From Nitrosomonadales bacterium (lineage in GTDB: Bacteria > Pseudomonadota > Gammaproteobacteria > Burkholderiales > Gallionellaceae), in contig JACPEI010000072.1 of assembly GCA_016183575.1 (NCBI GenBank), positions 1 through 39,563 of the forward strand: DNA of 39,563 nt, given 5' to 3'. The position numbers and the translations under genes are program-made. The notes under the pieces are model-generated. The model was not told the DNA's origin and searched no databases. It saw only the letters and a list, made by a program, of their open reading frames with translations. Positions 3,464-15,467 of the stretch are shown here, in pieces (within the stretch, counting starts at the first letter, position 1; the number at the start of each line of letters is the position of its first letter).

Positions 3464-3523
3464 ATAACCAGCGGCTTGCTGATGTCGTTTGTCGGCTTAG
3501 CCGAATGGCTAGTTGTTTTATCA
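3464..3523. repeat. Type B hairpin repeat, intergenic copy beside tRNA-His
   Basis: On the reverse strand this 60-bp unit starts TGATAAAACAACTAGCCATT and ends GCCGCTGGTTAT, the same framework as copies inside uvrC (11301-11361) and a dehydratase gene (15372-15425). The lower stem is CGGCT/AGCCG, whereas it is CGACT/AGTCG in the other two. It ends 2-3 bp before the 5' end of tRNA-His, so it falls in that tRNA's 5' leader. Confidence 0.8.
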
Positions 3524-3607: not shown

Positions 3608-4297
3608 TCAAAGAGTTAGATGAGTTTTGCTCTTTTGTATTTGTGGTAACGTAGCCAAATCGTAGCCACTCACAAGTTGCAATCCAGAAAACTTTTCAAC
3701 GTACCCGGCAAGGTGATCGCTAGAAAGGTGCGCATATCGCCTCACCATCTCCGCCGATTCCCAGCCACCCAGCTCTTGCAACACATGAAGCGGCGTTCCC
3801 GCTTGAACGTGCCAGCTTGCCCATGTATGGCGCAGATTATGCCATCTAAAATCGGCAATTCCTGCACGCGCTAACGCTTTAATCCATGCGCCATTATTGG
3901 GTTGCATTACTGGCTTGCTTCGATAGCTGAATACGTGTGTTTCATGCTTCCCAATTTGTTCCCGCAACACCAATACAGCGGTATTGGATAAAGGGACAGC
4001 AATCGCCTTGCGAGCTTTTGCTTGGTCAGGATGAATCCACGCACAGCGACGAACCAAATCCACTTGCGACCACTACAACCCTGTTACATTGGCTTGCCGC
4101 AAACCTGTTTCCAAGCTAAATTGCACCATCGCTGCCAAATGTTCCGGCAATTCCGCTATGAGGCGTTCAGTTTCGGCATGTGTTAATCAACGCACCCGCC
4201 TTTTCGGTTCAGGCAGTATCTTCACTTTTGGACAGCGGTCTATCCATTCCCAATCGAAAGCAGCTTTTCGAAGGACGGTTCGCAGAACAGAAAGCAT
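3608..4297 (-). pseudogene. Phage-type tyrosine recombinase (integrase), decayed
   Basis: Reading the reverse strand in one frame from about 4297 to 3608 gives a continuous integrase catalytic region broken by two stops. A TGA lies in PEPKRRVR-stop-LTHAE, where Trp would be natural, and a TAG lies in RQANVTGL-stop-WSQVDL, where Gln or Glu would be natural. Catalytic landmarks remain: TGLR before the second stop, then HNLRHTWASWH, LGGW and MVRRYAHLS with the nucleophilic Tyr. Further stops lie upstream of the ATG at 4295-4297, so the N-terminal core-binding region is lost. The longest intact stretch is 3608-4063. The 3' end of the gene faces tRNA-His 5 bp away, typical of an integrated element, but no other mobile genes or second att copy are visible. 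Confidence 0.88.
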
Positions 4298-9255: not shown

Positions 9256-9923
9256 AACATATGCTTACATTCAATGAAGATTGCCGCCGCTGTTCGCGCC
9301 TGGCCGGGTTTCTCGACCAGGTGCGCGACGAACATCCTGACTACCACGCCTTGCCGGTAAGCTCGTTCGGTGGGGCGGGCAGCCGCTTTTTGATCGTCGG
9401 GCTGGCTCCAGGCATGCACGGCGCAAACCGCACCGGGCGGCCGTTCAGCGGTGATTTTGCCGGAAATCTGCTGTACGGCGCATTGCACGAATACGGCTTT
9501 GCCAGCAGTCCCGAGCCGCTCGATGCGGCGGGGAATGCCAATCCGGCCCTGAGTTTGCTGGGTTGCCGCATCACCAATGCGGTGCGCTGCCTGCCGCCGC
9601 AGAACAAGCCGGAGCCGGGCGAGATCCGCGCCTGCAACGGCTATGTCGCGGAGGAGTTGGCGATGCTGCCGCAGGGTTCGGCGATATTGGCGCTCGGCAC
9701 GATCGCGCACCAGGCGGTACTGATGGCGTTGAACCTGCGCAAGAACAGCTTCGCGTTCGGGCACGGCGCGCGGCACGAGCTACCGGGCGGGCTGACGCTC
9801 TATGACAGTTACCATTGCAGCCGCTACAACACCCAAACCAAACGCCTGACTACGGCGATGTTCAAGGCGGTGATCAACGACATCGCAAAACACATTGTAG
9901 GAGCGGGCCATGCCCGCGATTGA
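9252..9923 (+). CDS. Uracil-DNA glycosylase family protein (family 5-like, UdgB)
   Basis: This enzyme would remove uracil or deaminated bases from DNA as the first step of base excision repair. Motif A is [18 protein letters not shown], close to family 5 (UDGb) rather than to Ung. Motif B appears as [11 protein letters not shown], with the His but with Cys where His-Pro-Ser is usual. Four cysteines (C14 and C17 near the N-terminus, C113 and C123 in the middle) may bind a 4Fe-4S cluster as in families 4 and 5. The start is GTG at 9252, overlapping the rlmJ stop, or ATG at 9261. The last eight residues, VGAGHARD, are encoded by a palindromic repeat and are probably not ancestral. It overlaps uvrC by 14 nt. 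Confidence 0.85.
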
Positions 9924-9948
9924 GAAGGTCGCGGGCAGGGTCCGCTCC
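9896..9948. repeat. Type D palindrome forming the end of the glycosylase gene and start of uvrC
   Basis: Arms GGAGCGGGCCATGCCCGCGA and TCGCGGGCAGGGTCCGCTCC flank a 9-nt loop. The left arm holds the TAGGAG Shine-Dalgarno and the ATG (9910-9912) of uvrC. The loop holds the TGA (9921-9923) of the upstream gene. It encodes VGAGHARD in one frame and the first 13 codons of uvrC in the other. Confidence 0.88.
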
Positions 9949-11856
9949 AAATTCGACCCAAAACCGATACTCGGCAGCCTGCCGTTGCTGCCAGGCGTGT
10001 ATCGCTTTTTCGACGCCAAGGGCGAGGTGCTGTATGTCGGCAAGGCCAGGCAACTGAAAAAACGCGTTGCATCCTACTTTCAGAAAACCAATGTCTCGCC
10101 GCGCATCCGCCTGATGGTGTCGCATATCGCGCGCATCGAAACCACCGTCACGCGCTCGGAAGCCGAGGCGCTGCTGCTCGAAAACAACCTGATAAAATCA
10201 TTAAGACCGCGCTATAACATATTGTTTCGCGATGACAAGTCTTATCCGTATATCGTGCTGACCGGGGAGGAATTTCCGCGTCTGACCTACTATCGCGGCG
10301 CGCCCAATCGCAAGCATCAACACTTCGGTCCCTACCCGAATGCGTATGCCGCCAAGGAAAGCATCCAGCTGTTGCAGAAGATTTTCCGCATCCGCACCTG
10401 CGAGGACAGCGTGTTCAGCAATCGCACGCGCCCCTGTCTGCTGCACCAAATCCACCGCTGCACCGCCCCCTGCGTGAATCTGGTTTCGGCGGAAGATTAC
10501 CAGGCCGATATTCGCAATGCGGTGCTGTTGCTGCAAGGCAAGCATCAGGAGGTCGAGCAGACCTTGCGGGCGGCGATGGAGCGCGCGGCTGAGGCGCAGC
10601 ATTATGAACAGGCCGCCGCGTTGCGCGACCAGTTGCGCGCGTTGCATACCGTGCAGCAGAAGCAGTTCGTCGAATCCACCGGCGGGGCGGCGGATGCCGA
10701 CATCATCGCGCTGGCGCAGCAGGATGATTTGGCCTGCGTGAATCTGGCGATGGTGCGCGGCGGGCGGCATCTGGGCGACAAGAGTTTCTTCCCGGAACAT
10801 GCCGAAGATCTGCCGGCGAATGAGATCGTGCAGGCGTTCATCGCGCAGCATTACCTGAATCGCAGCGTGCCGCCGTTGCTGGTGCTGGATGCCGCATGCG
10901 ATGATGAGACGCTGGCGCAGTTGCTCAGCGAACAGGCCGGACACGCGGTGAAGATCAGCCAGGCCGCGAGCGGCGAGCGCAGGCAGTGGCTGGAGATGGC
11001 GCAGCGCAACGCGAAACTGGCGTTGCAGCAGCGCATCGCGCAGCAGGGCGGGCAGAAGCTGCGGCTGGACAGGCTGCGCGAATGGCTGGATATGCCGGAC
11101 TTGCAGCGTATCGAGTGTTTCGACATCAGCCATACGATGGGTGAGGCGGCACAGGCTTCCTGCGTGGTGTATGAGAATCTCGACATGCGCACCAGCCAAT
11201 ACCGCCGCTACAACATCACCGGCATCACGCCCGGCGACGACTATGCGGCGATGCGCCAGGCGTTGACGCGGCGCTACCAGAAGCTTGCCGAAGCCTGTCC
11301 TGATGAAACTACTAGCCATTCGACTAGGCTATCAAAAGACAATAGCCAAGTCGCTGGTTATGAGTCACATCGAAGGGATGGGCCGAAGGAGGAGGGCACC
11401 AAACAAGAATTGATACGCCCCGATCTGATCTTGATCGACGGCGGCTTGGGGCAATTGCATATCGCAATGGAAGTGATGCAGGAACTGGGTTTGAACGATT
11501 TGGCCCTGGTCGGGGTCGCCAAGGGCGAGGAACGCAAGGCAGGCCTGGAACAACTGGTTTTTCCCGACGGCACGGCAAAGCAGTTGCGCAGCGATGATCC
11601 GGCATTGCATCTGATCCAGCAGATACGCGATGAGGCGCATCGTTTCGCCATCACCGGGCACCGCGCCAGACGCGGCAAGGCGCGCACCGCCTCCAGCCTG
11701 GAGGAAATCAGCGGGGTAGGGGACAAGCGGCGGCGCAGTCTGCTGACCCACTTCGGCGGGCTGCGCGAAGTGGCGCAAGCCAGTGTCGAACAACTCAGTC
11801 AGGTGGAAGGAATTAGCAAAGCGCTTGCTGAAAAGATTTACCAGCAACTCCATTAA
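9910..11856 (+). CDS. uvrC: Excinuclease ABC subunit C, with two repeat-derived segments
   Basis: UvrC makes the two incisions in UvrABC nucleotide excision repair. Modules of the 648-residue protein in order: GIY-YIG nuclease ([20 protein letters not shown], residues about 28-47), Cys cluster near residue 170, UVR motif ([13 protein letters not shown]), RNase H-like second nuclease ([14 protein letters not shown] and DLILIDGG), and a C-terminal tandem helix-hairpin-helix ([29 protein letters not shown]). The first ~13 residues come from a palindromic repeat that also brings the ATG and Shine-Dalgarno; family homology begins at KFDPKP. Between the RRYQK helix and DLILIDGG there are about 49 residues where roughly 11 are usual. 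This surplus includes a type B repeat encoding TTSHST...QVAGY. The nuclease motifs themselves are intact, so the gene is probably functional. Confidence 0.95.
11301..11361 (+). repeat. Type B hairpin repeat inserted in frame in uvrC
   Basis: A 61-bp unit begins TGATGAAACTACTAGCCATT and ends CAAGTCGCTGGTTAT. It folds as CGACT-A-GGCTAT, a 9-nt loop, then ATAGCC-A-AGTCG. It encodes [20 protein letters not shown], roughly residues 464-484 of UvrC, in the same frame as the copy in the dehydratase gene. Confidence 0.88.
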
Positions 11857-14769: not shown

Positions 14770-14885
14770 TTACTCAGGCTGGCTGGCCTTGACCGCTTGA
14801 TATTCTGAAAAGATGCCGACTTCCAGATGGCGTTTAACCTGGGTCAGCCCCGCGGCACTCAGCGTGGCCAGGACTCGTTCGGGGG
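14770..14885 (-). pseudogene. C-terminal remnant of a class I methyltransferase
   Basis: Reverse-strand reading gives P-E-RVLATLSAAGLTQVKRH followed by LEVGIFSEYQAVKASQPE and a TAA at 14770-14772. The pattern of a helix, V.RH, then GIFSEY and a short tail is typical of the last ~35 residues of UbiE/ApeB-like methyltransferases. No SAM-binding region precedes it; instead its 5' edge runs into the 3' end of the dehydratase gene in another frame. This looks like the scar of a deletion. Confidence 0.65.
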
Positions 14886-15467
14886 TAGCGCGTCGGCATC
14901 GAGCACGACTGCGGCGCGGCCCTCCAGCAGCAGTTGTCCCGCCGCGCTGACGCTGAACTGATAGAGGATATTGTTTTCGCCGCGCGTGATGCAGGTGGCT
15001 TCCACTCGCAGATCGGCGGCGATGCCGTCCAGCCGCGGCACATGCAGCTGTGTGCCGCGCACGCTGACCAGATAACCGACCCGTGCACGGGCACTGTCCG
15101 GCGGCGCCAGCAGGACGCCGTGCACGGCCATGGCCTGCGCCGCATATTCGATACCGCAGGCGGCGCCCAGCCGGCCGTTAGCGCGCAGCGGGTTGTCGGC
15201 GGCGCGATGGCTACTCGCGCGGCACTGGATGCGCTGCTGATCCCATGCCTCAACCTGATCCAGCAGGCACATGCTGCCCTGATGCGGGATATGCCGGGCA
15301 ATCCAGGCGCGGTCCAGCTTGACGTGAAACTCGCGCAGCGAGACTGCGTCCCTCTCGCCCGCTTGCGGGAGATAACCAGCGACTTGCCCGCTTGCGGGCT
15401 TAGTCGAATGGCTAGTCGTTCCATCAGAGTTAGGAGAGAGGGGAATGGGTCTGGTTTGATTTAGCAT
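14859..15467 (-). CDS. 3-hydroxyacyl-ACP dehydratase-like protein (ApeP type) with repeat-derived N-terminus
   Basis: A hot-dog fold dehydratase expected to dehydrate the 3-hydroxyacyl-ACP intermediate of polyene synthesis. The domain begins at about residue 51 (LDRAWIARHIPHQGSMCLLD); GRLGAACGIEYAAQAMAVHG contains the conserved Glu, as in ApeP. Residues about 8-42 are encoded by a type A repeat with a type B repeat nested in it (LSPNS, then TTSHSTK, then QVAGYLPQAGE), so the protein is 202 residues instead of about 150. The last 12 or so residues (ADALPPNESWPR) are also foreign, because the natural stop was lost at a junction with a methyltransferase remnant. The ATG overlaps the preceding ketosynthase-like gene by 7 nt. 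Confidence 0.8.
   Translation of the reverse strand: MLNQTRPIPLSPNSDGTTSHSTKPASGQVAGYLPQAGERDAVSLREFHVKLDRAWIARHIPHQGSMCLLDQVEAWDQQRIQCRASSHRAADNPLRANGRLGAACGIEYAAQAMAVHGVLLAPPDSARARVGYLVSVRGTQLHVPRLDGIAADLRVEATCITRGENNILYQFSVSAAGQLLLEGRAAVVLDADALPPNESWPR
15350..15446. repeat. Type B repeat nested in a type A repeat, inside the dehydratase gene
   Basis: Type B occupies 15372-15425. On the gene strand it starts TGATGGAACGACTAGCCATT and ends CAAGTCGCTGGTTAT, with a GCCCGC-AA-GCGGGC hairpin tip. On either side lie the two halves of a type A unit: CCCCTCTCTCCTAACTC (15426-15446 side) and CTCCCGCAAGCGGGCGAG (15350-15371 side). Joined together they match the type A copies elsewhere in the window. 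The whole block is open in the dehydratase frame. Confidence 0.85.

Follow-up and report, generated by a model that had tools for sequence, protein, structure and literature searches.

The window, which is the whole stretch of 39,563 nucleotides analysed here and corresponds to contig C101 of a Gallionella-type MAG (G000; 1.55 Mb, 79% complete), carries three copies of a short hairpin element, and these are members of a large dispersed family. With a probability of about 0.7, the family is a selfish, non-autonomous hairpin element of the Gallionellaceae, among them the iron-oxidising Gallionella, and of some relatives in the order; by comparison it is inserted as one unit, and it would move as a single-stranded hairpin. 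In-frame palindromic parasites are best known from Rickettsia, and hairpin repeats within genes have been described in other groups; what appears to be new is the present family, with its structure and its rule of insertion. Open-licence PMC papers on palindromic or mobile repeats of Gallionella were screened by title and the start of the abstract, and none dealt with this family.

The limits of the three copies were set by comparison with empty sites, which left the places given in the earlier note as they were and refined the ends to those listed here. Copy 1 (60 bp; 11302-11361, forward strand) lies in frame in uvrC (9910-11856, forward strand), the gene for excinuclease ABC subunit C, which NCBIfam TIGR00194 matches in two parts, with residue 461 as the last of the first part. 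The copy encodes 20 residues, and its site is empty in G013 and G064. An older host palindrome is split by it into a left part (..GAAGCCTGTCCT; 11288-11301) and a right part (GAGTCACATCGAAGGGATGGGCC..; 11362-11385), both on the forward strand and with approximate outer limits; the unbroken palindrome reads GCCTGTCCTGAGTCCAGTCGAAGGG in G013 (L092). Copy 2 (54 bp; 15372-15425, reverse strand; tip GCCCGCAAGCGGGC) is read in frame close to the N-terminal end of a dehydratase-like ORF (14859-15467, reverse strand; name taken from the earlier note), encodes DGTTSHSTKPASGQVAGY and is probably also nested in an older palindrome. This ORF had no Pfam or NCBIfam match. Its matches in 11 other genomes start at residue 35 or beyond, and the four of these relatives that were read have the start and a HIPHQG motif and are without the insert. 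Copy 3 (59 bp; 3464-3522, reverse strand) lies between tRNA-Arg and tRNA-His and has an imperfectly paired tip; decayed look-alikes stand beside similar flanks in L092, L093 and L109, and at the tRNA flank of the first two much of the pairing is gone. The three copies have the fixed ends in common, a compensatory change in the middle stem (CGACT/AGTCG and CGGCT/AGCCG) and, in the two genic copies, tips that differ and still pair, all as first described. Folding of the three copies gave z-scores of -4.2, -3.2 and -2.2 for the element strand; the complementary strand gave -3.1, -2.6 and -1.9. At gathering scores, Rfam models matched three tRNAs in the window and nothing else.

A covariance model (A2) was built from 27 copies and used to search the genome and its relatives, as the earlier note had proposed; its family proved to extend well beyond the window, with 58 matches in G000 at E ≤ 0.01. 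A 16-base core with up to two mismatches gave 43 matches in the 1.55 Mb genome and 6 with a reversed control. Among 60 relatives searched with the model, 35 of the 36 congeners had matches, the number ranging from 1 to at least 86; since 86 candidates were scored per genome, the two genomes that reached 86 may hold more. The 24 genomes from other families gave one weak match in all. A broader sample took in 349 genomes of the order, under stricter filters and with no more than 15 candidates scored in each; matches at E ≤ 1e-5 were obtained in 27 of these genomes, from 13 of 147 genera, the own genus included. Copy number is very uneven between congeners (none in G022, 130 in G064); G063 has 27 copies, and G375 has nine, eight of them inside about 55 kb. 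Judged from at least 116 stretches, 80 with names among those listed, the element is carried chiefly by MAGs of Gallionella, Gallionellaceae, Nitrosomonadales, Sideroxydans and Ferrigenium; a few records are labelled Sulfuricella, Sulfuricaulis, Betaproteobacteria or Gammaproteobacteria. Sets of identical copies, several with near-identical flanks, were seen in G062 (L368-L371) and G388 (L372-L375), where they perhaps sit inside larger repeats. Two IMG/VR contigs filed as viral (L276 and L277) both carry the element core.

The anatomy of the unit was derived from 213 distinct copies in 277 loci chosen by the core pattern, a set that favours intact copies. The unit measures 60 bp (137 copies), 54 bp (35), 59 bp (31) or another length (10). 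It consists of an 11-base leader (GATRRAACNAC), a foot (CTAG), an outer stem (TAGCCA/TGGTTA, with a G.T pair constant in 124 of 127), a two-base bulge, a middle stem and a tip stem of about six pairs closed by a constant loop near AAAnnAC. The middle stem is CGACT/AGTCG, with the covarying forms TGACT/AGTCA (14), CCACT/AGTGG (10) and CGGCT/AGCCG (8 of 213), and is mismatched in five of the 213 copies. The tip stem takes 87 forms by our parsing, and its pairs comprise 1272 Watson-Crick, 9 G.T and 35 other mismatches. Changes on both sides of a pair filled 41 cells, against a shuffled mean of 11.3 and a value reached by none of 500 shuffles; in a larger, model-fitted alignment of 131 matches, which came from 100 of the 116 named loci, 211 such cells were counted against 54.7 in shuffles. 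Some tips recur as subfamilies, such as GGCCGT...ACGGCC in several G063 copies, and common tips differ from one another by one compensated pair; stepwise change in mobile lineages can therefore explain the exchangeable tip. Of 260 collected copies, 230 passed the filter for full copies, and 221 of these have the CTAG foot. As to a constraint of the frame on length, 44 of the 48 copies flanked on each side by 100 or more open codons are 60 or 54 bp long; among the remainder, 152 of 182 are multiples of three in length, with no clear difference from the open-frame set by eye.

Filled and empty sites were compared in three genes. For uvrC, 30 loci were fetched, out of 39 genomes with some match, and the linker was readable in 29, that of G000 included. 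The element is present in two of the 29 (G000 and G020), the host palindrome alone in two (G013 and G064), and the element is absent from the other 25; in most readable congeners the linker is short or filled otherwise. The residues encoded by the insert are thus not an ancestral part of UvrC. In G000 and G020 the 60-bp element lies within the older palindrome after CCT, and the order of events can be read from these alignments as palindrome first and element later. In gatB (29 of 30 loci read; element in G000 alone), G020 reads CCTCCCCT^GACAAGGGGAGG and G000 is identical plus 60 bp at the caret. For CysRS, G026 reads GAGCCT[element]GTCGAAGG and G013 reads GAGCTTGTCGAAGG. The downstream flank in the uvrC and gatB pairs also starts with GA, which leaves the limit ambiguous by two bases. 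GA is taken as part of the element and not as a duplication because of the CysRS pair and because, over the family, the GA of the leader is constant while the right flank opens with C in 111 and with G in 82 of 213 copies. On the left, the last base but one is C in 153 and T in 47 of 211 copies, and the last base is T in 171 of 211. These comparisons at the sequence level show a target rule of CT (less often TT) on the left and C or G on the right, with clean insertion and no target duplication. A target-site duplication, as in DDE-type MITEs, is absent from the uvrC, gatB and CysRS pairs, the two-base ambiguity applying to the first two.

In CysRS the element was found in 4 of 30 loci; three copies share a host palindrome, and the fourth sits in a different one. 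Those that share a palindrome look like separate insertions, since each is nearer to copies elsewhere than to the other two; gene conversion is an alternative. Copies also nest in one another, with an element in the foot of another copy in L054 and L168 and one of a second type inside another's loop in L023. By eye, the GatB and CysRS linkers of other congeners (L278-L337) hold at least three other palindrome families, read for example as SPSPASGRGGE, PELVEG and SPDKGRAGG. Palindromes are not claimed as a preferred target of the main type: the pairing across the insertion point was no different from that at YT^S sites taken at random (p=0.64). Folding energy at insertion sites was slightly lower than at those random sites (p=0.00025). 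In other families of the order (L376-L378 and L343), the outer stem is compensated (TAAGC.../...GCTTA), the foot is CTAA and the leader is kept; the CT insertion site is also kept in L376-L378. The idea that the CTAG foot is a simple guide that chooses CT is weakened, because relatives outside the genus with CTAA use the same CT site.

The distribution between genes and intergenic DNA, a count also suggested at the outset, was determined in G000. All but one of the 58 matches could be assigned to loci; the exception, the dehydratase copy, was read directly in the window. A read-through ORF of at least 100 codons (chance ORFs counted) contains 29 of the 57 assigned matches, and the other 28 have none. 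At least eight of the 58 interrupt genes with Pfam or NCBIfam domains on either side of the insert or across it, which encode UvrC, GatB, CysRS, BioF, ComEC, CobB, an AddA-like helicase and a phosphoesterase. Under half of the G000 copies are shown to be in genes. Copies near protein ends, for example in ApbE, ZipA, GlnD, CoaE, MlaC, an LptD_N-domain protein and a PHP protein, are less certain as genuine in-gene insertions. In 10 chosen long ORFs of other genomes, the element was found inside MutS (in two genomes), IleRS, Mfd, GlnE and a transporter. An in-gene copy adds about 20 amino acids. Both window genes read the unit as TTSHST...QVAGY, as the earlier note had seen; the common frame does not hold as a family rule, because elsewhere the unit is also read in a second sense frame (LAIRL..KSLV) and in an antisense one (ITSDLA..SRMASS), which makes three frames with the sense frame TTSHST..QVAGY.

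The protein regions that bear inserts look like flexible loops. Alignments to solved CysRS (1li5), GatB (4wj3) and MutS (5yk4) structures break around the insert. In an AlphaFold model of UvrC, residues 463-500 have a pLDDT below 50 and lie between blocks above 80; the model was built from 23 rows, few of which cover the insert, has a mean pLDDT of 66 and a pTM of 0.53, and is also below 50 at residues 1-110, so the prediction gives weak support to a disordered UvrC insert. The added peptide is probably disordered and without a function of its own. Users of Gallionella CysRS, GatB, UvrC and MutS sequences should be aware that some of these contain stretches that are not ancestral protein.

Sequence comparison shows that the unit (mostly 60, 54 or 59 bp) is inserted whole into intergenic palindromes, into its own copies and, in frame, into protein genes, and that its tip stem changes while pairing is kept. 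In the mechanism proposed, it likely transfers as a single-stranded DNA hairpin, and an enzyme acting in trans may cut and rejoin it at CT in the manner of REPs or IS200/IS605. In-gene copies would be retained at sites that can accommodate a loop and where translation can read through. The IS200/IS605 family transposes as single strands, keeps the target on the 5' side, makes no duplication and has a hairpin. Strand preference was assessed in G063, a single contig that starts from dnaA and whose GC skew changes sign between about 1.32 and 1.43 Mb. The element strand was on the lagging-strand template in 18 of 22 full-model matches (p=0.004; part of the G063 list was already known when the bias was looked for). 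Twenty of the 22 were fetched and the other two counted as main type; two of the 18 bear another leader, and without them the count is 16 of 20 (p=0.012). The bias was not significant in G026 (16/27) or G007 (21/37), and the total for the three genomes was 55 of 86 (p=0.013), with 24 matches skipped for unclear skew. Core-only matches had no bias (8/21), and ORFs neighbouring the G063 copies run both ways by eye. Separated half-elements, as expected of an autonomous copy, were searched for in 277 loci, and none was convincing.

Insertion at CT with no duplication is reminiscent of TnpA-REP, an enzyme described in PMC8266576 as cutting at CT next to the hairpins of REPs. The element may be another REP family of a resident RAYT (a Y1 transposase) with CTAG in place of the GTAG foot, a reading we consider possible, if on the doubtful side. 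It would account for the CT target, the hairpin, the lack of a target duplication and the CTAG foot of nearly all full copies, and Y1_Tnp (PF01797) was matched in 35 of 41 genomes of the genus, G000 included. Yet G063 and G375 (99% complete), both with copies, gave no Y1_Tnp match, and all 18 RAYT genes read by eye are flanked by GTAG-footed repeats of other sequence. RAYT was rejected as the partner on this ground and because no more than one of 30 Y1 loci in other genomes had an element copy. Of two sets of 20 Y1 loci, one gave a single weak, unrelated match; the other gave eight matches in five loci over 123 kb, about the genome's own density, a comparison without statistics in which two of the matching stretches had been drawn to include known copies. 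The weak match (15 bits, in L120) looks like an unrelated hairpin, and the idea of an IS200 end was rejected. By eye, Gallionella has many divergent RAYT genes (L140-L159) with GTAG-footed repeats in their flanks. The REP reading gains from subtype B', which has a second leader, GCTTTGCA (or GCTCTGCA), on the same core. GTAG or CTAC was found within about 45 bases in 17 of 20 B' copies and 19 of 235 main-type copies; flanking stems of 7 bp or more accompany 12 of the 20 and 47 of the 235, respectively. To the right, 45 bases were inspected for B' and 35 for the main type, and the B' set includes some near-identical copies. REP hairpins thus seem to be a frequent location of B' copies and may carry them along when they move. 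L148 (G013; 5935, 8072 and 8373) is the exception among the RAYT loci, with B' within GTAG-footed repeats and one copy in the 3' end of the RAYT reading frame. A pair of copies in G102 has the B' leader, and further B' loci are L029, L186, L355, L360 and L444.

A structured RNA or cis-regulatory element, with a stem that covaries through RNA function, would fit the strong covariation, the conserved loop and the constant G-U pair of the outer stem; we regard it as highly improbable, given that G-U pairs are few in the variable stem, that copies occur in either orientation relative to open frames, that no Rfam model other than those of tRNAs matched in the window and that insertions into genes are clean. 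At the three most variable pairs, G-U occurs in 0, 2 and 3 of 127 copies and unpaired bases in 7, 6 and 12; per mismatch type, G.T (two types) is about as rare as the other ten. Since more G-U would be expected in the stem of a functional RNA, we lean to a DNA hairpin, the argument being that G.T is not favoured. Constant stem boxes with a variable tip also resemble attC-like hairpins of integron cassettes moved by site-specific recombination, and the close spacing of copies in G375 would suit them. The G375 stretches fetched hold no cassette array, the copies there lie in other intergenic repeats, and single copies stand in genes after CT; the integron idea was dropped for the G375 cluster and is scarcely credible for the family. 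The in-frame copies might instead be adaptive linkers, exapted for function, as the recurrence in the CysRS linker and in MutS of two genomes could indicate. This too seems improbable: in other congeners the same linkers hold other palindromes or are short, the three CysRS copies have their nearest relatives elsewhere, and the UvrC insert is predicted to be disordered. The reading as a selfish mobile hairpin is preferred over all of these. A more specific form of it is put forward quite tentatively, namely a parasite outside the GTAG and CGTC classes, moved by a non-Y1 enzyme or by host replication and repair alone, in which the constant boxes and loop would be recognised, the tip would drift under pairing, and housekeeping proteins would be entered repeatedly in a free-living lineage with at least three other palindrome families.

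The resemblance to rickettsial palindromic elements proposed in the earlier note is borne out by the many further copies and the clean in-gene insertions. Like RPE-1, RPE-4 and RPE-6, in the accounts of them in PMC3733652 and PMC10969869 (RPEs are reviewed in the latter), the element is a short palindrome placed in frame in unrelated protein genes, and this recurrent insertion is found here. Those accounts give no dedicated transposase for CGTC-tagged RPEs, and here likewise no partner was found. The element differs from RPEs in its host group, its usual length of 60, 54 or 59 bp, the CT^S target and the variable tip stem; the likeness holds for the in-frame palindrome and not for the CGTC tag. 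A CGTC tag has been reported for RPE sequences and a GTAG tag for REPs, and in-frame REPs and RPEs in repair and tRNA-synthetase genes have been described (PMC3733652). CGTC was found at the very ends of none of the 230 full copies, and GTAG in the leader of two and at the very ends of none; the element is filed under neither REP nor RPE because both tag tests failed. With GTAG-tagged REPs and their RAYT/TnpA-REP, as far as these are treated in PMC8266576 and PMC3733652, the element shares the hairpin, the CT dinucleotide and an occasional location within repair or tRNA-synthetase genes. In contrast to them, it has a CTAG foot, an 11-base leader and a constant loop, is the own repeat of none of the 18 RAYT genes and coexists with GTAG REPs of other sequence. 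The features shared with IS200/IS605 (a family also treated in PMC8266576) are the target kept on the 5' side, the lack of duplication and the hairpin; a strand bias of the element, as such transposition would give, was seen in the closed genome G063 and was not significant in G026 and G007. Unlike that family, the element is one hairpin and not two ends, and has no gene and no autonomous partner among the sequences searched. Palindromic amphipathic repeat coding elements are also palindromic repeats read as protein and, in the description opening PMC2996958, are intragenic tandem repeats, by which description alone they are set apart.

The free-living, many-species host group offers empty and filled sites, a target rule, nested insertions that can be ordered and many tip variants; with these it becomes possible to test how insertion proceeds, how much proteins tolerate and how a mobile DNA hairpin covaries. 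Two further features of the window were recorded. Beside tRNA-His, an ORF (3608-4063, reverse strand) has a motif resembling the C-terminal portion of phage-type integrases and may be what is left of an integrated element. The window also holds another repeat (GCTTGCTGAA..ACCAGCAACTCCA), with two copies close to each other at 2424-2516 and one at the end of uvrC (11810-11852).
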